From a virus, in the IMG/VR virus record IMGVR_UViG_3300033273_000677, positions 1-64,000 of that record: DNA of 64,000 nucleotides, one strand, 5' to 3'. Under the pieces are notes generated by a model, which made no database searches, was not told the DNA's origin, and saw only the letters and a list, made by a program, of their open reading frames with translations. Both the position numbers and the translations under genes were made by a program. Shown here in pieces: positions 1,565 through 44,900 of the stretch (position 1 is the first letter of the stretch; each line of letters begins with the position of its first letter).

Positions 1565-1571
1565 TGTATTT

Positions 1572-1643
1572 GGGAGTGTCGCATATTGGTTAATGCCCAT
1601 GCCTTATAAGCGTGTGAACCGAGTTCAATTCTCGGCATTCCTA
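1572..1643 (+). tRNA. trnI(UAU): tRNA-Ile (anticodon UAU)
   Basis: Complete cloverleaf: acceptor GGGAGTG/CATTCCT with two G-U pairs, D stem GCAT/ATGC, anticodon stem CATGC/GCGTG around loop CTTATAA, T arm CCGAG-TTCAATT-CTCGG, discriminator A; CCA is not encoded. Anticodon UAU reads AUA. Most bacteria read AUA with a CAU tRNA carrying lysidine, so a dedicated UAU tRNA may help an AT-rich phage translate AUA codons (inference). Confidence 0.9.
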
Positions 1644-1645
1644 TT

Positions 1646-1721: not shown

Positions 1722-1794
1722 GCTCGTTTAGCAATCTGTCGAATGCAATCGTCTCATAAACGATCGAAGGTGGGTTAGATTCCCACAACGAGCA
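1722..1794 (+). tRNA. trnM(CAU): tRNA with anticodon CAU (Met, or Ile2)
   Basis: Acceptor GCTCGTT/AACGAGC, D stem GCA/TGC, anticodon stem ATCGT/ACGAT with loop CTCATAA, T arm GTGGG-TTAGATT-CCCAC, discriminator A, no encoded CCA. CAU is either elongator Met or, if lysidine-modified, Ile2; sequence alone does not settle this. The upstream Ile(UAU) makes an Ile2 role less necessary. Confidence 0.88.
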
Positions 1795-1795
1795 C

Positions 1796-1824
1796 TTGAC
1801 AATCAGCACTCTGAGTGTTATGAT
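1796..1824 (+). promoter_or_regulatory. Sigma70-type promoter inside an inverted repeat, between tRNAs
   Basis: TTGACA at 1796-1801 and TATGAT at 1819-1824, 17-base spacer. The region forms an inverted repeat, GACAATCA (1798-1805) with TGATTGTC (1821-1828), plus an inner CACT/AGTG pairing. The repeat may be an operator or a weak RNA hairpin. It would give independent early expression of tRNA-Val and tRNA-Leu. Confidence 0.75.
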
Positions 1825-1833
1825 TGTCCCATC

Positions 1834-1905
1834 GGGTGATTGGCGCAGTGGTAGCGCAGTAGATTTACATTCTATTGGTCACTGGTTCGAATCCAGTATC
1901 ACCCA
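1834..1905 (+). tRNA. trnV(UAC): tRNA-Val (anticodon UAC)
   Basis: Acceptor GGGTGAT/ATCACCC, D stem GCGC/GCGC, anticodon stem GTAGA/TCTAT with loop TTTACAT, T arm ACTGG-TTCGAAT-CCAGT, discriminator A. The anticodon at 1866-1868 is TAC, reading GUA. CCA is not encoded. Confidence 0.92.
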
Positions 1906-1909
1906 CCTT

Positions 1910-2192
1910 GCGAGTATGGTGGAATCGGTAGACACACCAGACTTATGAAAATTGAGCCTCATTTGAGAAATCTTATGAGTGTAACTCCTCAAATTCGGGG
2001 AAACCTGTAAAATGGCAATCCCGAGCCAAGCATCGTAAGATGAAGGTGTAGAGACTAGACGGGGAGCACCTAAACTGAAAGGTATGGTGAAGGGATAGTC
2101 CAGACCACAAACCGTAAGGGCAAGGAAACTTGTAGTGGTAAGAAAATCTGTTGACCATTACGGTCGTGGGAGTTCAAGTCTCCCTACTCGCA
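1910..2192 (+). tRNA. trnL(UAA): tRNA-Leu (UAA), split by a group I intron
   Basis: Exon 1 is 1910-1944 and exon 2 is 2143-2192. Joined, they give acceptor GCGAGTA/TACTCGC, D arm with GGTAGA, anticodon loop CTTAAAA (anticodon TAA), a long class II variable arm GACC/GGTC, T arm GGGAG-TTCAAGT-CTCCC and discriminator A. Position 27-43 of the anticodon stem is a C-U mismatch. The intron separates the first anticodon base (U34) from A35, the same position as the ancient tRNA-Leu(UAA) intron of cyanobacteria and plastids. The tRNA only works after splicing. Confidence 0.92.
1945..2142 (+). ncRNA. Group I intron in tRNA-Leu(UAA), cyanobacterial/plastid type
   Basis: 198 bases with no open reading frame for an endonuclease. 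The core segments match the cyanobacterial trnL intron as I know it, in order: AATTGAGCC near the 5' end, CGGGGAAACCTG, AATCCCGAGCCAAGC, GTGTAGAGACTAGACGG and ATAGTCC. P7 can be drawn as GACTA (2053-2057) with TAGTC (2096-2100). Exon 1 ends in U (...GACTT) and the intron ends in G (GGTAAG), as group I splicing requires. Its host tRNA and insertion point are the classic ones, so it probably came from a cyanobacterial trnL gene (inference). Confidence 0.9.
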
Positions 2193-2209: not shown

Positions 2210-3226
2210 ATGAAACTAATCGAACGCATCGAAGAACTTTCAAAGACTTTACCAAGACCTTCTTATAGTGAAGCAGATACTAAAGGTAAGTCACTTGTAA
2301 TAAGATGGATGTTAGAAGACGGTTTGACCGTAAATAAAGACATCTATGGTAATATAAGAGGAGTTCTTCCCGGTTCCGGTGCTCCTATTGTTACTGGTTC
2401 GCATACAGATACTGTAGCAACTGCCGGTAAGTATGATGGTGCTCTGGGTGTTTTGGCAGGATTAGAAGCAGCCAGAGCACTGAAAGGTAAATTAAAGCAT
2501 CCATTGGAAGTTGTAATCTTTGATGATGAAGAAAATACAATGGGTGGATCAGTTGGATACTGTTCGAAAAAACCTGATATCAAGGCATTTGTTGAACTTC
2601 ACGTTGAACAAGGACCAGTATTGGATGTTCAGCAATTAGATATTGGCATTGTTCAGGGTATTGTAGGACAGAGAAGGTGCTCTGTTTCTGTATTTGGACA
2701 AGAGAATCACGCAGGAACCACACCAATGAATATGAGAGATGATGCTCTCGTAAAGACTGCAGAGATCATCACTTACATTAATAAGAAAGCACAAGAATGT
2801 GATGGATTGGTTGCAACTGTAGGTGTCCTAGATGTTCATCCAAACGCATTCAGTGTTGTTCCTGGCCGTGTTGATTTTACATTACAGGTACGAGATTTGT
2901 ATGCTGATACAATGGAGAGTTTTGTAGAGGATGTATGTAAGAAGTTTGATTTGAGATATGAAATCTCACACCAGTCAGAACCTGCATTGTGTGATAAAAA
3001 GATTATGGAGTTTATATCAGAATCTTGTGGTGATTTAAAGAGTATTGAGATGCCTTCAAGAGCATCACACGATGCACAGAACTTTACCTTCTGTCCGATG
3101 GGTATGATATTTGTTCCATCAATTGGTGGTATCAGTCATTCTCCAAAGGAAAAAACCACAGATCAGATGTGTATTAATGGGTCAAATGTCTTAACAAATA
3201 CCATCAAAATGATTGATGAGATGTAA
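2210..3226 (+). CDS. M20-family amidohydrolase (allantoate / N-carbamoyl amino acid amidase type)
   Basis: 338 residues. The two-metal peptidase-like centre is visible: H65 (GSHTDTV), D76 (YDGALG), E107-E108 (FDDEEN), H131 (HVEQGP) and H310 (GGISHSP). HVEQGP, ENHAGTTPM (H167, lid domain) and SRASHDAQ are hallmarks of the hydantoinase/carbamoylase branch of M20, which releases ammonia from allantoate, ureidoglycolate or N-carbamoyl amino acids. Family members are usually about 400 residues; this one is shorter mainly at the N-terminus. It follows the tRNA cluster by 17 bases. As a phage gene it would be an auxiliary metabolic gene for nitrogen salvage (inference); the substrate cannot be told from sequence. 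Confidence 0.85.
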   Translation: MKLIERIEELSKTLPRPSYSEADTKGKSLVIRWMLEDGLTVNKDIYGNIRGVLPGSGAPIVTGSHTDTVATAGKYDGALGVLAGLEAARALKGKLKHPLEVVIFDDEENTMGGSVGYCSKKPDIKAFVELHVEQGPVLDVQQLDIGIVQGIVGQRRCSVSVFGQENHAGTTPMNMRDDALVKTAEIITYINKKAQECDGLVATVGVLDVHPNAFSVVPGRVDFTLQVRDLYADTMESFVEDVCKKFDLRYEISHQSEPALCDKKIMEFISESCGDLKSIEMPSRASHDAQNFTFCPMGMIFVPSIGGISHSPKEKTTDQMCINGSNVLTNTIKMIDEM

Positions 3227-3595: not shown

Positions 3596-6500
3596 ATGCC
3601 TCTGAATAAGTTAGATTCTATCATCAAGAATACTGAAGGTCGCATCTTATATGTAAGTCCGGCAGATTTAGACTCTACTGATAGTATTAGTAATCAAGGA
3701 AATTCTCTTGCCAGACCATTCAAGACTCTTCAGAGAGCATTAATTGAATCTGCGAGATTTTCGTATATAAAAGGAAATAGTAACGACGAGACAGAGAAGA
3801 CCACAATTCTCTTGATGCCTGGTGAGCACGTTATTGATAATAGACCGGGTTATACTATTGATAGTACGGGAACAACAACTACTGCTGATGGTTCAGCAGT
3901 AACACCATTTGCTTTAACATTAGACTCTATTTTTGATTTAACACAAAAAGATAATGATCTTTATAAGTTCAATAGTGTAAATGGTGGGGTAATTGTTCCT
4001 CGTGGAACTTCAATCGTTGGTCTTGACTTAAGAAAGACTAAACTGCGCCCACTTTATGTTCCAAATCCAACTGATGATTCAGTACCATATTCTTCTCTCT
4101 TTAGAATTACTGGAGCTTGCTATCTTTGGCAATTCTCAATTTTTGATGCGGATGAATTTGAAACGGTATATACTCAACACAACAATTTTACTGAAAAGTC
4201 TACACCAACATTTTCTCACCATAAACTTACGGTATTTGAATATGCCGATGGTGTTAATGAAGTTGGCAATAAGGGTCTTACGGACCTTCAGATGTACTAT
4301 GCCAAATTATCTCAGGCTTACTCTACCGGTTCTGGTAGACCAGTCGATACTGATGATGTATTCCCAACAAACGATTTAGGATTTAATCCTAGAAGACCGG
4401 AATTTGAAATTGTAGGTGCATTTGCTTCAGATCCTATTACAATTTCATCGATTCAAGCAGGTGATGGATTAACTCCTACTAGAAGAATTAAGGTTACCAC
4501 ACAAGAAGAACACGGATTGAATGTGGGAACACCTATTCTTATTAAAGGTGTATCTGATAATTCTTATAATATTTCTACCAAAGTTACATCAATTGATGAA
4601 GATAATGATAAAATCTTTTTCTATAATATAACTAAAAATCCTGCACTTATCAATCCCGGACCATTTACAAGTGAAGGTACTGTAACCATTGAGACTGATA
4701 CAGTTACTGGTGCTTCTCCATATATCTTCAATATTTCCATGCGATCTGTATGGGGTATGCAGGGTATGCACGCCGACGGAAGTAAGGCAACTGGTTTCCG
4801 TTCAATGGTTGTTGCTCAGTTTACTGGTGTTTCACTTCAAAAAGATGATAGAGCATTTGTAAAATATAATGAGTCAAGTAGAACATACGAGAATACATTT
4901 TATGCTGCAGGAACAACACAAAGTGGTTCTGAACTATCCTCAAAATCATCATCAACTGGAACAGTTTATCATTTAGATTCTGAGGCAATTTATCGTCAGG
5001 GATGGGAACAATCACATATCAGAATTAGTAACGATGCAATTGTTCAGGTAGTTTCTGTTTTTGCCATTGGTTATAACAAGCATTTTGTTGCCGAAACTGG
5101 TGGTGATGCTTCAATCACTAACTCAAACTCTAACTTTGGTCAGTTATCTCTGGTCTCCGATGGATTTAAGAAAGAGGCATTTGCGAAAGATGATAAGGCA
5201 TTCATCACTCATATTATTCCACCAAGAGCAATTGAATCAACGGAAGAAGATATTGATTGGTTGACTCTTGATCAGGATGCACCAAATACTTCAACCAAGT
5301 TATATATCTTTGGATTTAAGAACAAACAAGTAAAACCACCAATTCTTACTCAAGGATATCGTGTTGGTGCGAAAGTAAATGATAAACTTTTCTTAGGGTC
5401 TAACTCTGCAAGCATTGTAATGCCAAGTGGAGCATCTTCATTTGAAGAGTATTCTGTCGGTGCACCGAGTAATAATTTATTCACAGTTTCTAACAGTGGA
5501 ACTCATAATTTAACAACTGGTGAAAAAGTTATCATTATTAGTGACGATGGAGATTTACCAGAAAATCTGAGAACAAATACAGTTTATTATGCAATTGTTC
5601 CAAATAATACCACATTCAGACTTGCCGCATCACTGGCAGAAGCAACTTCAGATAGTCCAATTGAAGTATATGGTGGAACAAACTTAAAAGTTATTACGAG
5701 AGTCTCTGATAAAGAATCTGATGATATTGGTCATCCAGTTCAATATGATGATTCTGCGGATCAGTGGTATATTACTGTAAGTGCGACCGGAAATACTATT
5801 ACTTCACAGTTAACAGGATCTGGTGCCACTGATGAACCAACTATAATCAAGAGAATTCAAGATAATAGAAGTCTCGATGAAAAGATTTACAAACTTAGAG
5901 TTGTAGTTCCAAGTCAACTTACAAACGCAAAAACACCAGAATCTGGATTTGTTATTCAAGAATCAAGTTCAACTGGTTTTAGAGTAGATACTGATGCTAC
6001 TGCCGTTAGTATTGGAACGACTGATTATGATTTTAATCGTAATCTAAGAATTATCAAAAGTTGCTCTTTCTCATCACCAACAGTTACCGTCGTTTCGGAA
6101 CTTCCACACAACTTAAAGACTGGTGATTCTATTATTATTAGAAACGTAACAGACTCTACAAATACTGAAGGATTAATTGATAAGGGATATAACGGAACCT
6201 TTACTGTAGTAACTGTTGTTGATGATTTAACATTTACATATGTCACATCAACAACACCAGGGACATTTACAAATAATGTAAATACAAGAACTACAGCACT
6301 TCCAAGATTCGAGAGAAATAATCTTCAAGAAAATTTTTATATTTATAGAAATGAAGTTATTTCAGAATATGAAGAGAATGATAAAAATGGTGTATATCAC
6401 ATTTATGCATTAAATGCAAACAATGCGATTCAAGATCAATTTACAGATCTAAAATATAGTCAAAATGTAACAGATCTGTATCCACAACTTGACAGAGATA

Positions 6501-8980
6501 ATGTCAATGATAATCCTAATAGTGCAACAACTTATGCATTAAGATCTCCAATTGGAGAAGTTCAAACAGACGATCTTAAGAAAAGTATTACAAGAGAAAC
6601 AACAGATAAGTTATTAACAAGTTTAGGTATTGGCCTTGATGTTTCATCAGTTACAAATCCAACCTCAACATCACCAACAATTGTTTTTGACAGAAATCAT
6701 AGTTTTGCAGGTATCATAACTGGAACACAAGCACAAGGAACAGCAGGATTTAGTGCAGGAACATATCATAATGTAAAAATTTATAATAATAGTGGATTAA
6801 CGACTTGGAACGGTGCAACCGCAAAAGTTGTTGTTTCTGCGGGAACAAATATATCTTCTGTGGAAATAATGAATGGTGGATCTAACTATTCTGCAGGAAC
6901 ATATTACTTAGATACCAGTGTTATTGGAACAGGAAATAACAATGCATTTACTGTCGTAGCAAGTGGTCTTACACCTGGAGTAGGTCAAGCTATTCAATTT
7001 ACTGGCATTGGAACCGGAACAGATACATATCACCGTATTACTGGAGTTACTGCGAGAAATAGTGTTTCTATTGCGAGAACAACAGGAGATCCTGTAATTA
7101 CTTCTGATAATTACGGATTTGTAGTTGGACCATCTGTTGCATTTACTGCAGATTCAACATCTGGAATTGTAACTGCAACAGGTCATGGATTAGTGGTTGG
7201 TAATAAGTTTAGAGTCATTGATAGCAGCAATAATAATGCAGGAGACTATATTGTTGGTGTATCCACATTAACTAATAAATTTGAAGTTAGTGGTGGTATT
7301 GGAGCAGCATCTGGTTTCATTATGAAACATGGATTATCATCTAATGAAGGTGTTTCGGATAGAACAAATGAAAATTTACAGGCAAGAGGAGTTACTATCT
7401 TTGATGGTGAGATATTAACACTCACCGAATCTTCAGGTATTACAGATTCTACAACATCATTCTCTGTAAGTGGCGCTCAGGGTGGAGTCATTGAAAGATT
7501 CCCACTTGGAACTTACATTCAAGTTGATGAAGAGATCATGAGAATCTCAAGCAGTAGTCTCAGTGGAGTTCCTGCTGATAAAATTACAGTAATTCGTGGA
7601 GCACTTGCAACTAGGGCAACTTCTCATTCAGTCAATTCTGTAATTAAGAGAATCAAAGTCCCTGCGATTGAATTCCGTAGACCATCAATTCTTCGTGCTT
7701 CCAGTCATACGTTTGAATATCTTGGATATGGTCCCGGTAACTATTCTACTGCACTTCCACAAGTTCAGGATAGAACTCTGACTGAAAGAGAAGAATTTTT
7801 ATCACAGGCACAAGAAAGATCTAATGGTCTTGTTGTTTACACTGGCATGAATAATAAAGGTGACTTCTTTATTGGTAATCAGAAGAAATCGTCCGCAACT
7901 GGTGAAGAAACTAACTTTGATATTCCGATTTCAACTGTTACTGGTGAGGACCCAGCAAGATTAAGTGCTGTATTTGATGAAGTTATAATCAAAGAAAGAT
8001 TAGTCGTAGAAGGTGGTAAGTCAAATCAAGTATTATCACAGTTTGATGGTCCTGTTACCTTCAATGAAAAGACAAAATTTGATGAACCTGTCAAAATTTC
8101 TTCAAATAAAGACTCTACAAGTTCAGCATCTGGAGCACTTGTAGTAACTGGGGGTATTGGAGTTGGTAAGACCATCACCGCATCAAATGTAAATGTCGGT
8201 AATATCACCATCAAAGGATCTACGGGTGAAGTATCAACGACAAGTGGTGACTTAAACATCACTTCTCTCGCAGGAAATAAAGTAGCAATTAAAACAGACA
8301 CTACTATTACAGGTGATGTATCAATCACTGGTGATACTACAATCACTGGTGTTACCACAATCACTGGTAATACGGATATTAATGGAAACTTAGATTTAAC
8401 TGGATCTGCTTCTACTGAAGGTAGAATTAGTGCCAATTATCTTGATGTTCCAAATATTTCTCCTATTGGAAGTATTATGATTTGGCCAGGTACAATCAAT
8501 ACTTGGCCAACGACAAATTGGAGACAATGTAATGGTGCTACATTATCTAAGACAACCTATTCAGACTTGTTTGCCGTTATTGGATACACTTATGGTGGTT
8601 CTGGTAACAACTTTAAACTTCCCAATTTGCAAGGTAAATTTGTGACTGGTATTGGTAATGACACTTGGAACAATACTTTGAATGAAACTGGTGGTAGAAC
8701 TGATGCAGTACTACCACAACACAAGCATGATATTAATGATCCAGGTCATCATCACGATTTCACTGCCGCAAGACAATTTTCTAATACAGAAAGTGGTGAT
8801 GGTGATATAGAATGCAAAAACTTTAATAATTTAGAAACTGGAAATGAAACAACTGGTATCTCGATACAGAATGTTGATTCTGATGATACAAATGCGAATA
8901 TTATGAGCAATTCAGATAAATTATCTGTAGCAAACCTACCACCATATACGGCACTCTATTACATCATAAGAATTAAATAA
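3596..8980 (+). CDS. Large tail fibre/short-fibre-like structural protein with tail collar domain
   Basis: 1794 residues. The N-terminal part (about 15-60) has the SLARPFKTLQRALIESARFS segment common in cyanophage structural proteins. The middle is long, Ser/Thr/Gly/Asn-rich beta-structure. Around 1565-1605 lies a run of six-residue TITGDT-like repeats typical of a triple beta-helix. From about 1620 there is a tail-collar domain (PIGSIMIWPG, WRQCNGATLS, LPNLQGKFVTG), then a histidine-rich QHKHD...GHHHD segment like the metal-binding region of T4 gp12. The fold and location suggest a trimeric receptor-binding fibre. It is preceded by a late promoter. Confidence 0.9.
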   Translation: MPLNKLDSIIKNTEGRILYVSPADLDSTDSISNQGNSLARPFKTLQRALIESARFSYIKGNSNDETEKTTILLMPGEHVIDNRPGYTIDSTGTTTTADGSAVTPFALTLDSIFDLTQKDNDLYKFNSVNGGVIVPRGTSIVGLDLRKTKLRPLYVPNPTDDSVPYSSLFRITGACYLWQFSIFDADEFETVYTQHNNFTEKSTPTFSHHKLTVFEYADGVNEVGNKGLTDLQMYYAKLSQAYSTGSGRPVDTDDVFPTNDLGFNPRRPEFEIVGAFASDPITISSIQAGDGLTPTRRIKVTTQEEHGLNVGTPILIKGVSDNSYNISTKVTSIDEDNDKIFFYNITKNPALINPGPFTSEGTVTIETDTVTGASPYIFNISMRSVWGMQGMHADGSKATGFRSMVVAQFTGVSLQKDDRAFVKYNESSRTYENTFYAAGTTQSGSELSSKSSSTGTVYHLDSEAIYRQGWEQSHIRISNDAIVQVVSVFAIGYNKHFVAETGGDASITNSNSNFGQLSLVSDGFKKEAFAKDDKAFITHIIPPRAIESTEEDIDWLTLDQDAPNTSTKLYIFGFKNKQVKPPILTQGYRVGAKVNDKLFLGSNSASIVMPSGASSFEEYSVGAPSNNLFTVSNSGTHNLTTGEKVIIISDDGDLPENLRTNTVYYAIVPNNTTFRLAASLAEATSDSPIEVYGGTNLKVITRVSDKESDDIGHPVQYDDSADQWYITVSATGNTITSQLTGSGATDEPTIIKRIQDNRSLDEKIYKLRVVVPSQLTNAKTPESGFVIQESSSTGFRVDTDATAVSIGTTDYDFNRNLRIIKSCSFSSPTVTVVSELPHNLKTGDSIIIRNVTDSTNTEGLIDKGYNGTFTVVTVVDDLTFTYVTSTTPGTFTNNVNTRTTALPRFERNNLQENFYIYRNEVISEYEENDKNGVYHIYALNANNAIQDQFTDLKYSQNVTDLYPQLDRDNVNDNPNSATTYALRSPIGEVQTDDLKKSITRETTDKLLTSLGIGLDVSSVTNPTSTSPTIVFDRNHSFAGIITGTQAQGTAGFSAGTYHNVKIYNNSGLTTWNGATAKVVVSAGTNISSVEIMNGGSNYSAGTYYLDTSVIGTGNNNAFTVVASGLTPGVGQAIQFTGIGTGTDTYHRITGVTARNSVSIARTTGDPVITSDNYGFVVGPSVAFTADSTSGIVTATGHGLVVGNKFRVIDSSNNNAGDYIVGVSTLTNKFEVSGGIGAASGFIMKHGLSSNEGVSDRTNENLQARGVTIFDGEILTLTESSGITDSTTSFSVSGAQGGVIERFPLGTYIQVDEEIMRISSSSLSGVPADKITVIRGALATRATSHSVNSVIKRIKVPAIEFRRPSILRASSHTFEYLGYGPGNYSTALPQVQDRTLTEREEFLSQAQERSNGLVVYTGMNNKGDFFIGNQKKSSATGEETNFDIPISTVTGEDPARLSAVFDEVIIKERLVVEGGKSNQVLSQFDGPVTFNEKTKFDEPVKISSNKDSTSSASGALVVTGGIGVGKTITASNVNVGNITIKGSTGEVSTTSGDLNITSLAGNKVAIKTDTTITGDVSITGDTTITGVTTITGNTDINGNLDLTGSASTEGRISANYLDVPNISPIGSIMIWPGTINTWPTTNWRQCNGATLSKTTYSDLFAVIGYTYGGSGNNFKLPNLQGKFVTGIGNDTWNNTLNETGGRTDAVLPQHKHDINDPGHHHDFTAARQFSNTESGDGDIECKNFNNLETGNETTGISIQNVDSDDTNANIMSNSDKLSVANLPPYTALYYIIRIK

Positions 8981-10588: not shown

Positions 10589-11212
10589 ATGAATTTAAGT
10601 GATCTGATATATGTCAAAGAAAATGTATTAGATCACGAGTTTTGTCGTGAATTAATATTAAAATTTAATAGTGATGATAGGAAACGACCAGGAAGTATTG
10701 GTTCTACTGGTGCAACAGGAGAAATTATATCTAATGTAAATTTGAATTTAAAAAAATGTTTAGATCTTAATATAACTGGTCTTAAAGAGTGGAACAAAGA
10801 AGATAAAGTATTATGTAAGTCTTATAATAACAATGTACAAAATTATTTTCAATATACTGATAAATTTTCTCCTAGAACAGAAAATAATGAAACAGTATTT
10901 GGAAATGGAATTTGTAATTTCAGAGATCGTGGATATTTAATAAGATCATATGAAAAATCAGATGGTTACTTTAAGTGGCATAATGATTTTTCATTAGATA
11001 AAAAATATGGTCTTAGAATGTTAACTCTTATTTGGTATTTGAATGATGTAGAGGAAGGTGGAGAAACTGAATTTGTTGATGGAACTCTTGTTAAGCCAAA
11101 AACAGGGCAATTATTAATATTTCCAACATCATGGTATATGGCACATAGAGGAAAAATGCCAATATCAAATAAAAAATATATTATTACAAGTTGGTTATAT
11201 GGTTATCAGTAG
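10589..11212 (+). CDS. Second prolyl 4-hydroxylase-like 2OG-Fe(II) oxygenase
   Basis: 207 residues. H131-x-D133 (KWHNDF), the EEGGETEF strand, distal H186 (MAHRGKMP) and K196 at His+10 form a complete Fe(II)/2-oxoglutarate site of the prolyl 4-hydroxylase type. It is clearly diverged from the copy at 519-1115, so the two are not a recent duplication. Like that copy it follows a fibre gene, here by 45 bases, which hints at hydroxylation of virion proteins (inference). Near residues 35-45 it carries a short GSIGSTGATGE run resembling collagen triplets, possibly coincidental. Confidence 0.82.
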   Translation: MNLSDLIYVKENVLDHEFCRELILKFNSDDRKRPGSIGSTGATGEIISNVNLNLKKCLDLNITGLKEWNKEDKVLCKSYNNNVQNYFQYTDKFSPRTENNETVFGNGICNFRDRGYLIRSYEKSDGYFKWHNDFSLDKKYGLRMLTLIWYLNDVEEGGETEFVDGTLVKPKTGQLLIFPTSWYMAHRGKMPISNKKYIITSWLYGYQ

Positions 11213-25573: not shown

Positions 25574-25806
25574 ATGATTATGTCAAGTGGAGAAATGTCG
25601 AAGGATGGGTGTATTATGTCGGAGAAGAGTATATTACGATAGAAGTTGCGGTCAAGGACAAACCCGATAATCATGTAATGTTTCATCGGAAGATTCATTG
25701 TAATGTTGTTTGTCCTAGTTGGAACTGGGATGAACTAAAGTATGTGACTAATAGGAGAGAACCTGAGTATAAAGGTCAACCTTATAGAGATCAGGATTTG
25801 TACTAA
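25552..25806 (+). CDS. 84-residue unknown beta-rich protein
   Basis: MSYVPIVDDYVKWRNVEGWV, then YYVGEEYITIEVAVKDKPDN: looks like a small beta-barrel, ending with a helix-poor Arg/Glu/Tyr tail. Last plus-strand gene before the minus-strand island; its stop overlaps the stop of the convergent oxygenase gene by 4 bases. Confidence 0.68.
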   Translation: MSYVPIVDDYVKWRNVEGWVYYVGEEYITIEVAVKDKPDNHVMFHRKIHCNVVCPSWNWDELKYVTNRREPEYKGQPYRDQDLY

Positions 25807-26495
25807 TATTGAAGTGCCTTCATGTCATTGTAGGTAAGATGTTTTCTAACCAATAAATCACGACGTGCTCTCCACCTAACATAGTTTGAATTGTAGTAGT
25901 CATAAAGATTATCACACATGGGTTCTTTTACTTTATCCATCATGTGTCCCCAATACTTATATTCACGGAATGCTTCTATGTTAGTCCATAATGAATGAGA
26001 CCAAAAGATTGCAACATTACGTTCACCCCTGGTAACAGTATTGACCCTATGTCCTATACCAGTTTCATATGTAACACCCCAACCCATATCTAACTTGAAT
26101 GGAACTTCCTTACCATCAATGAATAAAACTAATTCACCACCATCATATTGATCAGGAGAATTAAGAAAGATTGTTGTACTAAAGTTACCCAGTGTTAGTT
26201 TATCTACATGTGGATGATAGTAACCACCGACAGGAGTTTTTGTTATTCTTGCCTTACTACTGGTATGTGATTGAGTAAATTTTATAAAATTACTGTTTCT
26301 ATCAACATGTTTCCATATTAGATTACCCGGTAATGTTTCCTTTGTTATTAGGTTGTTTTTTATCTCTTTGTTCTTCTTACTGTGTGTCTCAGATCCATCT
26401 ATCCATTCCTGTAATTTATACCAGTGTTTGATCTTATCTAGTGCTGATTGATTGAAGAACTGACTGATGTAGAATCTTCCGATTGGTGTTGTCAT
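25803..26495 (-). CDS. PiuC/YbiX-type 2OG-Fe(II) oxygenase
   Basis: 230 residues from ATG at 26495, with CCGGAGA just upstream; the frame before it overlaps the homing endonuclease gene and is not needed. Fe(II)/2-oxoglutarate site: H96-x-D98 (YYHPHVDKL), YDGGELVL strand, H149 (GIGHRVNTVTRGER) and R159 at His+10. The GHRV-VTRGER region and the N-terminal GRFYISQFFNQS fit the PiuC/YbiX (PKHD-type) branch, unlike the two Lys-type enzymes on the plus strand. Substrate unknown. It is the second gene of a two-gene minus-strand unit. Confidence 0.82.
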   Translation of the reverse strand: MTTPIGRFYISQFFNQSALDKIKHWYKLQEWIDGSETHSKKNKEIKNNLITKETLPGNLIWKHVDRNSNFIKFTQSHTSSKARITKTPVGGYYHPHVDKLTLGNFSTTIFLNSPDQYDGGELVLFIDGKEVPFKLDMGWGVTYETGIGHRVNTVTRGERNVAIFWSHSLWTNIEAFREYKYWGHMMDKVKEPMCDNLYDYYNSNYVRWRARRDLLVRKHLTYNDMKALQY

Positions 26496-26511
26496 ATGAT
26501 GTCTCCGGTGA

Positions 26512-27318
26512 TTACGCCTTAAACCAGTAATATCCTTTGTAAGAGTTTTTGCGGGGATTTTTAATAGATTTTCTAATTCCATCTACACTACCATATATCT
26601 TACCTGCTTCTCTTATACTGTTATAGGTTGGTGTTCTCTGCCAGGTAATCTTATTGATGCCATATACCTTAACACATTGCTTGGATTGTTCTAAACGTTT
26701 CCATAGATGACCCTGGCACTTATATCCTTTATTCATAGCACGGGTAATGTTACCTGCTTTATTTCTGTTACCTGTTAATTCTATTGCTGCTTCACTTACA
26801 CTATTCCATACTCTCTCTTCTCCTGTTTCTACATTCACAGACATTATCTTAGTTGCTAGGTGTTTACCATTGCCCCTATTCTCTGCTAAATGAAATCCCC
26901 ATTTCTCGTTATTATCTAACTTATCTTTTAATCCTTTACTGATATTATCACAATGTTTTTCTGATTTACTTACACCAGACATCTTATCTGATATCTTCTG
27001 TTTTGTTTCATCACTGAATGATGGAGTATTACCACCTGATGTAGCATTATATCCTGCACTACTATTGAATGTATTGAACTTTTCTATGTAATATTCTTCT
27101 CTTTCATCTAACAGTTCAGTATCACATTCTTCTAATTCTTTAATCATAAAGTTGTGATTACCGTGCTTTCGCATTGCCTTATGTAAAGGATACGGAGACA
27201 TACGTATTGCTTCCTGTATATGTTGTGCCCATCTCTTGTTCATTCCTCTGATGGTCTGCCCGACATATTTGTGCCCGTTAATCTTATTGATGATGAGATA
27301 GATTGTTCCTACTGCCAT
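26512..27318 (-). CDS. GIY-YIG homing endonuclease with NUMOD motifs
   Basis: 268 residues from ATG 27318. The catalytic domain begins GTIYLIINKINGHKYVGQT (T5-I-Y7 and Y18-V-G20), followed by Arg in IRGMNKRW and Glu in LLDEREEYYIEKF. SFSDETKQKISDKMSG is a NUMOD3-type DNA-binding motif, and SIREAGKIYGSVDGIRKSI is a NUMOD1-like helix-turn-helix. This is a free-standing mobile gene like the Seg endonucleases of T4. It lies 16 bases before the oxygenase start on the same strand, so it may have brought in or invaded beside that gene. A late promoter lies 23 bases upstream. Confidence 0.9.
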   Translation of the reverse strand: MAVGTIYLIINKINGHKYVGQTIRGMNKRWAQHIQEAIRMSPYPLHKAMRKHGNHNFMIKELEECDTELLDEREEYYIEKFNTFNSSAGYNATSGGNTPSFSDETKQKISDKMSGVSKSEKHCDNISKGLKDKLDNNEKWGFHLAENRGNGKHLATKIMSVNVETGEERVWNSVSEAAIELTGNRNKAGNITRAMNKGYKCQGHLWKRLEQSKQCVKVYGINKITWQRTPTYNSIREAGKIYGSVDGIRKSIKNPRKNSYKGYYWFKA

Positions 27319-27340
27319 ATTGTGATAAAATACATACCAA

Positions 27341-27348
27341 TATTTATA
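27341..27348 (-). promoter_or_regulatory. T4-type late promoter on the minus strand
   Basis: TATAAATA on the minus strand (TATTTATA as written), 22 bases before the endonuclease ATG. A perfect late consensus, giving the minus-strand island its own late expression. Confidence 0.75.
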
Positions 27349-27611
27349 GAACTGTATTGCTTTGTGATAATATACAATACATTTCTTTATTGTTAAATTA
27401 AATATAAATAACCTGTTTTTATTGCTCTGAGTAACTGTGTAGATACTGTGTAGATACTGCTGAGTAACTGTCAAATAAACCTCAGACCTTATGCAAGTTC
27501 AGGCGACACGCTACCACACTCAGAGCATTTTGTCAACCACCCCCGCATAAAAATCTGAGAACCCACACATAAAACTTACAGGTCTTATAAATATTGCTTA
27601 TGAGACCCCCC
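27349..27611. other. Intergenic region between divergent units
   Basis: No gene seen. It holds two further TATAAATA boxes on the plus strand (27403-27410 and 27586-27593) with no gene close behind them, and direct repeats near 27428-27470: GTGTAGATACT twice in tandem and GAGTAACTGT twice. The middle (27490-27560) has a higher GC content with short C-runs and no clear hairpin. Likely a divergent promoter region and a possible insertion scar of the minus-strand island. Confidence 0.5.
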
Positions 27612-38900: not shown

Positions 38901-41900
38901 TAGGTTATGCAATGCTGGTGTTGGAGGAACTATTACCTCAAATTATGAAAGATTGAATTATGAAAAATTCAACAGTATTGGAAGTGGAGAGCAATATTTT
39001 AAATATCCAGATATTTCAGTTTCTATTCAATACACTACTACCGGAATTGGATCAACCACTCAAACTTTTGAAAATTTAGTTCTTACTCCAGTGGTAAAGG
39101 GAGAAATAATTGACGCATATGTATATGAGTCTGGAACTGGATACGGATCGACAATTATAAACTATCAAAGAAAACCAACAGTAACTTTACAGAATGGAAA
39201 ATCTGCACAATTAACTCCAGTTGTTGTTAATGGTAGACTTACAAAAGTTTCAATTAGTTATCAAGGTACAGAGTATTATTCTGTTCCCGATTTGATAGTT
39301 TCTGGAACAGGAACTGGGGCTGAATTGAGAGCAATAATTAATGATAGTGGACAAATTAGTGAAGTCAAGGTTCTCAATACTGGTATTGGATATTCTTCAT
39401 CAAATACGAGTATTGAAGTTATTCCATCAGGAAAAAATGCTTTTATTGATTCACAAATAAGAAAATTAACTATTAATAATAATCATACAAAATTCTCTAC
39501 TGGTGAAGTTTTATTGAATGGTAAAGATAAACTTCAATATTCAGTTTCCAAGTATTTTGAATCTTTAAGAAATTCATTCTTAGAGAATGCAAATTCACGA
39601 TCTGAAATTATTGGTTGGGCATATGATGGAAATCCAATTTATGGTCCATATGGATATCCCAATCCTGCGATACCTTTAGGAGTAAAAACACTAGAATCTG
39701 GATATACTCTCGATTCTTCAAATGTTGTAGATAGACCTTCTGGATTTGATGATGGATTTTTTGTTGAAGATTATAAATTTGATAATAGTGGTGATTTAGA
39801 TGAATATAATGGAAGATATGAAAGAAATGATGATTTTCCAAATGGTGTTTATGCATATCATGCAACAATAGACGAATTCCCATATTTCATAGGAAATAAG
39901 TATAGATCCGAACCAGTTTTTGATTCTAATTTAGATCAATCATTTGATTTCAATAATTCTAATTTATTAAGAAATACTTTACCATATAAGGTATCAGAAA
40001 AAGGTGCAGACTATGATTTTGTAAATGAAATTAGTGATGTTTTAGAACAAAAAATAAAAGTTGTTTCTGTTACTTCAGGTCCAATAGAATCTTTGGAGAT
40101 TCAGAGTGCTGGAGACAAGTTTAAAGTCGGAGATAAATTGATTTTTGACGAAACTAATACCTCTGGAAGTGGATTAGATGTTGCTGTAGAATCATTAAAA
40201 GGGAAAAATATTACAAATATAGAAACAACTTCAACTTCATATCAAAATTCCGTCTTTACTTGGAATTCTTCGGATAAAATAAAGGTTTCAATATTACCAA
40301 ATCACAATCTCTCTAACTTAGATTATGTTACTATATCTGGATTTTCTACAAACCTTTCAAAATTAAATGGAAGTAATAGAATTTCTGTTCCTTCATATAA
40401 TAATGCAACTTGCCTATCTACAATAACATCATCATCTGCAGGTTTTACAACAGAAATTTATGTAGCACCGATTCCGGATCAAATATCAGTTGGTAGTAGT
40501 ATCAGTATTGGAACAGAAACCCTGAGAGTTCTTGGTGTATTTAAGAATGAAAATATCTTAAGAATAGAAAGAGGATCAACTGGAATATCACATACAGTTG
40601 GTACTGCAGTTTCTTTCTTGCCAGACTTCTTTACTATCGATAAGTCAGTAGACAAATTTGAATCTTCTACAAGCAACAAAGTATTCTTTAACCCTAGAGA
40701 ATCTATAGGAGTTTCAACTATAAGTGGAGTTGGATATAGTACTTCATTTGTTTTTGGAAATATTACTGTAAACAAAGATATTCCATCTAAGAGTATTAAT
40801 ATTAATAATCACTCATTTACAACAAATCAACGTGTTGTATTTACTAATAATGGAACGAGTATAACTGTTTCTACTGATGGTGTAAATGTATCCAATATTG
40901 ATACAAATCTTTTTGTCATTAATAAAAATCCAAATTTAATTGGATTGAAGACATCTATTGATGGAGATGAGTTATTCTTCCATTCTAATGGTGATGACAA
41001 TGATCTCTATTCATTAGAATCTAATCCTACACAAGTTCTTGGAAATGTTGATAAAAGAGAAGTGTCAGTTTTTGTTTCTACTGCACATGAACTTAGAAAT
41101 GGAGATTTTATAACTTTAGATGTTCAACCAAATCTTTCTGTAGGAATAGGAACTTCTACAGCAGTTCGTGTTGTCTATAATTCTCAAATAGGCAATATTA
41201 CAGTAAATCCTATTGGATTCAATTCTACAGGTATCAATACATCTACTAATGAATTTACCATAAACAATCATGAATTTGAAACTGGTGATAAAGTCCTTTA
41301 TGAAGACATTGGATATGGAGAGTATTTTGTATTTAAGATTGATAATAATAAATTTAAACTTTGCGAAACTTATTTTGACTCTCAGCAAAACCCTCCAACT
41401 ACTGTAAGTTTTGCGTCCACAGGAACTGCTTCGCAGTCAATATCATTAATTAATCCCAAATTGAATCCAACTAAAAATAATAATTTTGTATTTGATCTTT
41501 CCGATTCTAGTTTGACTGGATATAATTTTAGGATTTATGAAGACTCCAAATTTAATAATGAATTTATTTCTGTAGGTTCAACAAATCAATTTACGATAAC
41601 CAAAACAGGGACAATTGGATCTGCTTCAGCATCCTTAACATTGAACTACAATTCAAATATTCCAGAAAAATTATATTATACATTAGAAAAAGATGGCACG
41701 ATAGTTAAATCTGACACTGAAGTTGAGAATTATTCTACTATTGAATATAAAGAAAGTGTATATAATAATACCTATAAGATAACTGGAATAGGCACAACGA
41801 CATTTAATTTAAATATTACCGAAAAACCAGAAAGATCTTTTTATATTTCAACAGAATGTGATGTTTTAAATTATTCAACATCATCAAGTTTTGCTTCCGG

Positions 41901-44900
41901 TCCAGTAAATTCATTAAATGCAATATCTTTTGGATCTGGGTACAAATCTTTACCAACTTTAAAATCGACAAATTCGATTTCTGGTTTCGATCTACTCGTA
42001 AATCCACTGTCAAACTCAATTGGATCTGTAAAAGAAAAGGAAATCTTAAATAACAAGTTTACCTATTCCTCAGATAAAACACTCAGACCTAAAGCAAACG
42101 TCTCTCCAACTATCGTATTGGAGGATTTAAATACGATAGATCAAATATTGGTAACTAATAGTGGTGAAGGGTATACAACTGCACCAACCCTAAAACTTGT
42201 TGATTCTGTAAGTAGAAATGTAATAGATTCCGGAATATTGAAACCAATTTTAACAGGATCTGCAATTTCCTCGGTTAATGTTGAGTCTAAACCAAAAGGT
42301 TTGCCAGATGAAACTGTAGAAATATTTGCGACCAATAATACTAATGGAGTTGCAATTGTAAGTGTAGAATCATCAAACTCTGGTATTTTTACATGCACAA
42401 TATCAACACCAATAACTACAGGAATTTCTGCATTTACAGTTCAACCTTTTAATGTTGGTGATAAAGTTTATGTTGAAGGAATTCAAAAATTTAGCAGTAC
42501 TGGTGATGGATTTAATTCTGAAGATTATGGATTTAAGTATTTTGAGGTAACAAATATAAACACTAGTGGAGTAAATGATACTGTTACAATTAGTGTATCA
42601 GGACTTACTACAAACACTGGTATTGCAAAAACTGTTCAGGATTATTCTGGAGTCTTAATTAATAAAAATGATTATCCTCAGTTTGAAATAACTCAAAAAT
42701 TATCAGAATTTTTTGAAGGAGAAAGTTTATCTTCAAATGGAATAATCAGAGACTTAACGGTTGCTAAAAATATTGAAAATCAATTAAAAGTTTCTGGATT
42801 ATATGATCTATCTGTTGGAGAAGTCATCACAGGAACCGAATCTGGAACCGTTGCAACGATAAAATCACTGAATGTTAATGAAGCATTTTTTGATGTTGAA
42901 TTTTCCAATAGAAAAAATATTGGATGGAGAGATCAAGTTGGTAAACTAAGTGAAGATTATCAAGTAATTCCTGACAATGATTACTATCAAAATTTATCTT
43001 ACTCAGTAAAGAGTTCTATAACTTATAAAGATCAACAATCACCTGTAGAAAATTTAGTTCATACTAGTGGATTGAAAAATTTTGCGAATACTGGAATTTC
43101 TTCTTCTGTAACTGCAGGTATCACTACAACTAAAGAACAATTTACAATCATTTATGACATTGTTGATGATCGTAGAGTAGATACAGTTAATAATTTTGAT
43201 AATGTTGTAGATGTAGATGTTGTAAATTCAACATCCAAATTCCTAAAACTTGAAAATAGGAATCTTACCAACTATGCAGAATTGAGAAATCTTAACGTAT
43301 TGGAAATTGATGATATTAGTGATCAATTTTCCAATTCTGAATCAGAAAATACTGAATTTTTATCTATTGATGAAGTTGATAATATAACATATCAAAATTA
43401 TTTGTTTAGAGTTACCAGTAGTGACAACAGTGAAATACAGTTAACTGATCTAACAATTTTAAGTGATGGAATTGAGACTGTTATTGTTGAAAATGAATCG
43501 TTATATAATTCAAACACCCAATATGGAAGTTTTGAATTATTTGAAAATGAATTTGATGAAACTTTCCTAAGATTTATTCCTGTTGATCCTTTCAATACTG
43601 ATTATGATGTCAAATTAATTAAGCAATCTTTCAATACAAGTTTATCTGGAGTTGGAACACAACCAGTTGGATTCGTAACTTTAACCGGATCTGTTGACAT
43701 AGAAAATAGCACTGTTGGTTTAGGAACTACCACAATAATCTCCGTAGATTCTAATAAATTTAAATCTCTTTATATTAATGCACAAGTGACTAATACCATC
43801 ACGGATGATATGAATTATGTAAGATTATATGTTGCACATGATGGAACAAATAGTTTTATGTCAGAATATTACATTGACAATACTCTCAGTTCATCAACAG
43901 GTGATTCAATAGGAACATTCTATTCCAATTTGAGTAGTGGAATTTTATCAATAACACACGAAAATACCACATCAAATACAATCAATATAAAAACAAACAT
44001 CGTTGGTTTTGGAACAACTACATCCGGAATTGGAACATATAGATTTAAGTCATCAGATCAATTGGATGGACAAGAAAGAAGTGTAGTTTATAATTCAAAT
44101 TATCAATCTACAGTATCTTTAGCATCCACAACCATTCATACTTTAGATAAGACATTATTTAATGCATCAAAATCTTTAGTACAAGTCAGTATAGGTGCCA
44201 GTAAAGCACTTCATCAGGTTATGATGTTATTTGATGGAAATGATGTTTATACTCAACAGTTACCTTTCCTTTCAGTAGACAGCATTACTAATACTCTTGA
44301 CACTTTATCTGGTATCGGAACTTTTGGTGGAGAAGTATCTGGATCTAATTTAATTCTAAAATTCTATCCAGACAACCAAAATCAACAAGTTGATATTGAA
44401 GTATTTAATAAGTCTCTTTATTCGCAGGTAGATTCTATTAATAATTATCTAGATTTGTCTTATGGTGCTGTAACTGAAAGTATTGATGAAAGATTCTATA
44501 ATTCAATTAATGGTGATAGAATCAATAGAACTAATTTTAAACTCAATAGCAAACTCAAACCAATTTTCTCAAAAGAATTTAATCCAAATTCTGTAGCATT
44601 AGCACAAACAACAGGAATATTTACTATTCCAGATCATTTCTTTATGACTGGTGAAGAATTAATTTATACTCCAAACTCAACCATTGTTGGTGTTGGTACT
44701 AGTGCAATGATGACCAGTGCAACTGATGTCTTGCCATCTACAGTATATGCAATTAAAATAACAGAGGATACTTTCAAAGTTGCAATAACAACTACAGCAG
44801 CTCAAAGTGGTATTGGAATAACGTTTACTTCTTTAGGTGAAGGAAATGCTCATAGATTTACTATGAAAGAAAGAAATACTAAGTGTTTAATTAGTGTTGA

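Follow-up and report, generated by a model that had tools for sequence, protein, structure and literature searches.

Can a phage carry the group I intron of tRNA-Leu(UAA), and if so, did it receive the intron together with its gene from a cyanobacterium? The question arises from the window analysed here, a 64,000-nucleotide stretch of a 64.7-kb virus record (IMG/VR IMGVR_UViG_3300033273_000677, positions 1 to 64,000). Window 1910-2192 is a tRNA-Leu(UAA) gene split by a group I intron, with the following parts:

1910..1944, plus strand: 5' exon of tRNA-Leu(UAA), with U34 of the anticodon as its last base (ARAGORN on the spliced gene)
1945..2142, plus strand: group I intron, IC3-like, 198 nt, ORF-less (Rfam RF00028; covariation across P2-P9; relatives found with our own model, R1)
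2143..2192, plus strand: 3' exon of tRNA-Leu(UAA), with A35 as its first base and CCA not encoded (cloverleaf of the spliced gene)

When 1910-1944 is joined to 2143-2192, ARAGORN recognises a class II tRNA-Leu(taa) with a score of 116.0, which forms a full cloverleaf with an acceptor stem of 7 bp, a T stem of 5 bp, a long variable arm and the anticodon UAA. Its sole flaw is a C27.U43 mismatch that is common to intronless tRNA-Leu genes of cyanophages and cyanobacteria, and the cloverleaf and anticodon predict that the spliced product is a functional tRNA-Leu. The intron is matched by the Rfam group I model (RF00028, Intron_gpI) at window 1935-2124 on the plus strand with 66.5 bits (E 1.1e-14; gathering score 50). 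It is inserted after U34, the position of the trnL intron, and its boundaries (ACUU^...UAAG^) have U just before the 5' cut and G as the last intron base, as in its relatives. A preliminary description of this locus had read the exons as a complete class II tRNA-Leu and the insert as 198 bases after U34 with a group I core, a P7 helix and U/G boundary bases; all of this holds, coordinates included, and the covariance model returned the significant match that it had proposed to look for. Its expectation of a tRNA-search hit was borne out for the spliced exons, whereas the unspliced gene is missed or miscalled by ARAGORN. With introns disabled, only tRNA-Ile, -Met and -Val were called there. Intron mode gave a Tyr(ata) call with a misplaced boundary as well as wrong calls of Ser and Phe, and because of these wrong boundaries splice pairs were enumerated and then rescored with ARAGORN. 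A rival 3' site giving AAG scored marginally higher (116.6) and was rejected, as it lacks the terminal-G register of the relatives and goes against homology.

The fold of the intron was assessed on an alignment of 17 introns using a hand-drawn P2-P9 structure that includes the P3/P7 pseudoknot. The two helices of the pseudoknot are placed as follows in the window:

1985..1990, plus strand: P3 5' strand, CUCCUC, pairing with 2061-2066 (5/6 pairs covary; 100% of cells paired)
2061..2066, plus strand: P3 3' strand, GGGGAG (same covariation test)
2053..2057, plus strand: P7 5' strand, GACUA, guanosine-binding helix, pairing with 2096-2100 (100% paired)
2096..2100, plus strand: P7 3' strand, UAGUC (same covariation test)

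Overall, 91.4% of cells were paired and double-sided (compensatory) changes were found in 30/50 pairs, while 0/500 shuffles performed as well and slid partners reached at most 47% pairing. The last P7 pair varies between A-U, U-A and C-G, with GACUA/UAGUC in the window, GACUU/AAGUC in other phages and GACUC/GAGUC in cyanobacteria. The P5 loop is short in the alignment and the window intron has no P5abc extension; P5a-d is absent from IC3 introns (PMC11835236). The intron is thus classified as IC3-like from its tRNA host gene and the missing P5abc extension, and it is very probably self-splicing.

The surroundings of the split gene establish what kind of genome carries it. The relevant features are:

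1571..1644, plus strand: tRNA-Ile(UAU) (ARAGORN, Rfam tRNA)
1722..1795, plus strand: tRNA-Met(CAU) (ARAGORN, Rfam tRNA)
1796..1824, plus strand: candidate promoter TTGACA-17-TATGAT before tRNA-Val and tRNA-Leu (11/12 consensus match)
1834..1907, plus strand: tRNA-Val(UAC), separated by 2 nt from the split tRNA-Leu that follows it (ARAGORN, Rfam tRNA)
3596..8980, plus strand: cyanophage-type tail fibre gene (PHROG 529), constantly beside the tRNA block in related phages
26512-27474, minus strand: GIY-YIG homing endonuclease gene, the nearest found, 24 kb from the intron

The candidate promoter is weak, because such sites are no more frequent in this region than in shuffles. The record encodes T4-like neck, sheath, baseplate and fibre proteins, including gp14, whose nearest relatives are from Marine virus AG-345-L05 and Synechococcus and Prochlorococcus phages. 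Every one of the 458 INPHARED records that match the N-terminus of the tail fibre belongs either to a cyanophage (of Synechococcus, Prochlorococcus or others) or to a marine virus from a single cell (best match S-SKS1, 79.6%). In several related contigs the split tRNA-Leu lies upstream of the tail-fibre gene in the same gene order, and in the cultured phages S-SKS1 and S-SRM01 this position is taken by a shorter type of tRNA-Leu(UAA) that has no intron, follows tRNA-Ile and tRNA-Met and precedes the fibre gene. UUA accounts for 42% of Leu codons in 15 large window ORFs, so tRNA-Leu(UAA) is plausible cargo. The contig is therefore that of a T4-like cyanophage and not host contamination, a worry that the preliminary description had raised. 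As a metagenome contig it might in principle be misassembled or contaminated, yet its split gene is flanked by phage tRNAs and T4-like genes, the same arrangement recurs in independent IMG/VR contigs from other samples, and introns of the same class are present in finished genomes of cultured phages (below), all of which makes an artefact extremely improbable.

Three further observations were made in the window. Between tRNA-Ile and tRNA-Met, positions 1645-1720 can be drawn as a tRNA-like cloverleaf with a 7-bp acceptor stem and a T arm, but with a UUCG tetraloop in place of the anticodon arm; its fold z-score is only -1.9 and neither ARAGORN nor Rfam called it. Directly after the tRNA block, 2210-3226 is a Peptidase M20 family gene (PF01546, E 1.7e-25) with no PHROG match. 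Three separate 2OG-Fe(II) oxygenase genes are found at 519-1115, 10589-11212 and 25803-26582.

The preliminary description proposed a cyanobacterium as the source of the phage's intron-bearing gene, such that intron and exons share one origin. The carrier is indeed a cyanophage and both the tRNA and the insertion point are those of cyanobacterial trnL, but the exons tell otherwise. The spliced tRNA matches the intronless tRNA-Leu of Synechococcus phages Sf-FS3 and ACG-2014j at 81/85 and 80/85 positions, and its 5' exon is identical to both at 33/35. Of the cellular genes compared, the intronless tRNA-Leu(UAA) of a 1.8-Mb cyanobacterial genome comes closest (74/85) and features the C27.U43 mismatch too, whereas exons of intron-bearing cyanobacterial trnL genes reach only 60-67/85. 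Judged by these identities, the window exons are of cyanophage origin, and their nearest relatives, intron-bearing phages aside, lack introns. An intronless tRNA-Leu(UAA) pattern was detected in 283/386 sampled cyanobacterial genomes, among them nearly all genomes of 1.6-2.8 Mb. The usual hosts have genomes of that size, and these genomes would be picocyanobacterial.

The intron itself points the same way. Introns at this site occur in alphaproteobacteria, acidobacteria, planctomycetes, Bacteroidota and gammaproteobacteria besides cyanobacteria, so the earlier identification of the site after U34 and its core with cyanobacterial trnL was correct as to position but not specific to that group. 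Two trees were built, one of 142 and one of 103 introns. Cyanobacterial trnL introns formed their own clade (100% in one tree, 100/100 in the other, there on a branch of 0.65) with zero phage introns, and in both trees the window intron was placed outside it, among phage tRNA-Leu and tRNA-Arg introns. BLAST core matches were up to 85% for alphaproteobacterial introns and 75-79% for the best cyanobacterial introns of similar length, and the P7-P9 segment is also nearer to alphaproteobacterial and acidobacterial introns. The P1-P2 segment, on the other hand, is nearer to cyanobacterial introns (median 0.667) than to alphaproteobacterial ones (0.476), and placing the window clade as sister to the cyanobacterial one was not rejected by AU tests (p 0.128 and 0.502); these two signals are compatible with an old cyanobacterial ancestor or a mosaic intron, either of which is possible. 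Taken together, the separate clade, the BLAST matches and the segment signals argue that the window intron is not a sampled cyanobacterial trnL intron. The cyanobacterial donor is thus probably wrong, and we regard acquisition of the whole gene from a cyanobacterium as unlikely. Separately, a tRNA-Leu intron from a Legionellales (Tatlockia) MAG (L173) was nested within the cyanobacterial clade, reflecting either transfer or contamination.

Comparison with known systems places the intron more precisely. It shares with cyanobacterial tRNA-Leu(UAA) introns the tRNA, the insertion after U34, the core fold and a similar P1-P2, but it belongs to a separate clade, is phage-borne within exons of the intronless phage type, and differs in P7 (above) and in P9 (GACCAC...GUGGUAAG compared with AUUCUC...GAGAAUG). 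The tRNA-Leu(UAA) introns of alphaproteobacteria and acidobacteria have the closest P3-P8 core and the same P7 and 3' end, but reside in cellular genes and differ in P1-P2 and in guide context (GAGUGC against GAGCC). Azoarcus-type IC3 introns, whose core sequence we take to be very similar to that of the window intron, interrupt tRNA-Ile at another position. The cyanobacterial tRNA-fMet intron with I-Ssp6803I provides a homing endonuclease in the family; that intron is bacterial and sits in another tRNA, while phage relatives of the window intron encode HNH or LAGLIDADG proteins. The group I introns that interrupt protein genes of phages (T4 td/nrd, cyanophage psbA, Pf-WMP3 DNA polymerase, Jug phage terL) are phage-borne too and differ in having a protein rather than a tRNA host gene, yet a related core is found in the capsid gene of HTVC120P.

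To our reading of the literature searched, no trnL intron has been described as phage-borne, in agreement with the preliminary description. At the time of a 2014 review, no phage intron was known outside protein genes, although phages have many tRNA genes (Hausner 2014, PMC3984707), and among the later papers found, two report phage introns in protein genes (PMC11878797, PMC12363816). Over half of catalogued viral introns are of subtype IA2 (PMC11835236), and the main text of the huge-phage paper does not mention introns (PMC7162821). A 58-bp tRNA-Ser 'intron' is listed for Lactococcus phage PhiL47 (PMC3888941), but is too short to be a group I precedent.

The window intron is absent from deposited cyanophages in INPHARED, but it has many relatives elsewhere. 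Two pattern scans of IMG/VR yielded, among the matches listed, introns whose removal restores a tRNA-Leu(UAA), Arg(UCU), Asn(GUU), Lys, Thr or Met. IMG/VR was also searched with 15-base junction patterns, which are expected to match by chance, so a contig was counted only if its tRNA was spliceable. Split tRNA-Leu(UAA) genes were found in at least 76 contigs (at least 62 with the exact core motif) and split tRNA-Arg(UCU) genes in at least 50 (at least 42 with the motif); a long Leu case (L553), ORF-less and with a weak R1 score, was left out of the count. On one 281-kb contig (L110, IMGVR_UViG_3300022935_000005, 212921-214376), consecutive Arg(UCU), Leu(UAA) and Lys(UUU) genes each carry their own group I intron. 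The huge phages LR756501 and LR756503 (735 kb) share an intron-bearing tRNA-Leu, with an intron of 205 nt in LR756501. Two cultured phages, the jumbo Agrobacterium phage Atu_ph07 (L435) and Gordonia phage Daredevil (L434), carry unannotated examples:

NC_042013 112939-113211, minus strand: split tRNA-Leu(UAA) of Atu_ph07, with a 278-nt group I intron after U34 (R1 E 5e-34)
MH590603 about 41861-42093, minus strand: tRNA-Lys(UUU) of Daredevil, split by a 238-nt group I intron (R1 E 1e-30)

R1 is our own covariance model, with Atu_ph07 and Daredevil outside its training set and LR756501 inside; Rfam gave no match at E 0.01 on any of these three genomes. The Daredevil intron is near a tyrosine integrase gene, which might bear on the attachment site. 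Judged against the open literature and few preprints or supplements, this widespread and overlooked family of phage tRNA introns is probably novel.

Some related cores fall outside phage tRNA genes. Among the matches listed, 115 viral pattern matches had no tRNA, and a sample of these together with the HTVC120P capsid case suggests that they are introns in protein genes. In Pelagibacter phage HTVC120P (L298 1457-1653, R1 E 4e-35) and uncultured phage KM23-C739 (L299 1457-1630, R1 E 1e-29), the core lies between two annotated capsid fragments, and the capsid gene of both is probably spliced. The same core was found in two Pacearchaeota archaeal contigs, which could be binning errors; it splices into tRNA-Asn(GUU) in one (L126), while the tRNA call is uncertain in the other (L130). 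Four cyanobacterial genomes (L349, L351, L356, L378) have a different tRNA(CAU), probably tRNA-Ile, split after U33.

This distribution bears on whether the intron is simply inherited with the tRNA block of one cyanophage lineage, mainly vertically and with ordinary recombination but no current homing. Such a history fits the recurrence of the split tRNA-Leu ahead of the tail-fibre gene in several related contigs, as well as an ORF-less intron, but unrelated phages (LR756501, Atu_ph07, Daredevil) and several tRNA genes carry introns, and intron and exon histories are decoupled across phages. Intron identity exceeded distal-exon identity in 296/325 phage pairs compared with 62/231 cyanobacterial pairs, and at intron identities of 0.80-0.90 the mean exon identity was 0.676 in phages, 0.882 in cyanobacteria and 0.829 in alphaproteobacteria, although fast evolution of phage tRNAs could account for part of the low exon identity. 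Contig L284 is 97.9% identical to the window across the tRNA/intron block, whereas the proteins that follow are only 39-52% identical. Intronless tRNA-Leu alleles are present in cyanophages. The earlier suggestion of a vehicle for horizontal movement is therefore supported by the decoupling and by L284, with the movement being among phage tRNA genes.

Endonuclease ORFs in relatives also count against mainly vertical inheritance. A LAGLIDADG_2 protein (E 2e-26) is encoded inside the tRNA-Leu intron of a 79-kb contig, and the only relative of it found in tRNA introns outside that contig is encoded by an 844-nt intron after U35 of a tRNA-Asn(GUU) gene (L303 1300-2260). LR756511 (595 kb) encodes an HNH protein in the L6 loop of its tRNA-Leu intron, and HNH-like ORFs occur in six more long tRNA-Leu introns, several with HNH scores below the Pfam cut-off. 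There is no endonuclease ORF in the 198-nt window intron and none adjoining it, so homing is proposed for the lineage rather than for this copy. Monophyly of the phage Arg introns was not rejected (AU test, p 0.064), and switching between tRNA sites is therefore suggested only. With these points on both sides, mainly vertical inheritance is a weaker account, although one with a real chance of being correct.

We therefore favour, as the likely explanation, a self-splicing IC3 intron that is an endonuclease-less member of a lineage moving among phage tRNA genes and that was gained by an intronless-type phage tRNA. Its observational basis is the anatomy, conservation, distribution and phylogenetic separation of the intron, the exon/intron decoupling and the endonuclease ORFs of relatives, from which we infer splicing in vivo, homing and the direction of gain. 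A T4-like cyanophage would carry a functional tRNA-Leu(UAA) gene, useful to it because UUA is its commonest leucine codon, and a group IC3 intron would have entered the anticodon loop after U34. In the transcript, the 5' exon would pair with the intron guide, forming U.G at the 5' splice site; P7 would bind an external guanosine that attacks, and the terminal G would direct the second step to yield a joined tRNA of about 85 bases. The lineage would circulate among phage tRNA genes by homing, using the HNH or LAGLIDADG enzymes of relatives, and by recombination of the tRNA block, and the intron would have been gained by an intronless-type phage tRNA rather than imported with a cyanobacterial trnL gene. 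Alternatively, the intron might be kept to protect or regulate the tRNA, with the pre-tRNA hiding its anticodon loop from host anticodon nucleases or delaying the tRNA. Its position in the anticodon loop would suit this role, and a role of phage tRNAs against tRNA-cleaving defences has been proposed (PMC10264068), but bacterial tRNA introns are as a rule also in the anticodon loop, so no defence role is needed and we consider this explanation very unlikely.

Split tRNA genes occur in numerous phage contigs as well as in huge phages and two cultured ones, in contrast to the protein-genes-only picture of the earlier review (PMC3984707). They escape tRNA finders when introns are disabled, some of them are not matched by Rfam, and Atu_ph07 and Daredevil now make splicing and homing directly testable in culture. 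Textbooks present the trnL intron as an ancient one passed on largely by vertical descent; a phage pool with endonuclease-encoding relatives would therefore offer a vehicle for its scattered bacterial distribution. Tentatively, and with somewhat less than even confidence, we propose that phages are a major overlooked reservoir of mobile tRNA group I introns. With or without endonucleases, these would move among Leu(UAA), Arg(UCU), Lys, Asn, Thr and Met genes and would pass from one tRNA to another where both have CUU at the 5' splice site; the tRNA introns of bacteria may have come from phages in this way, and not the other way round.
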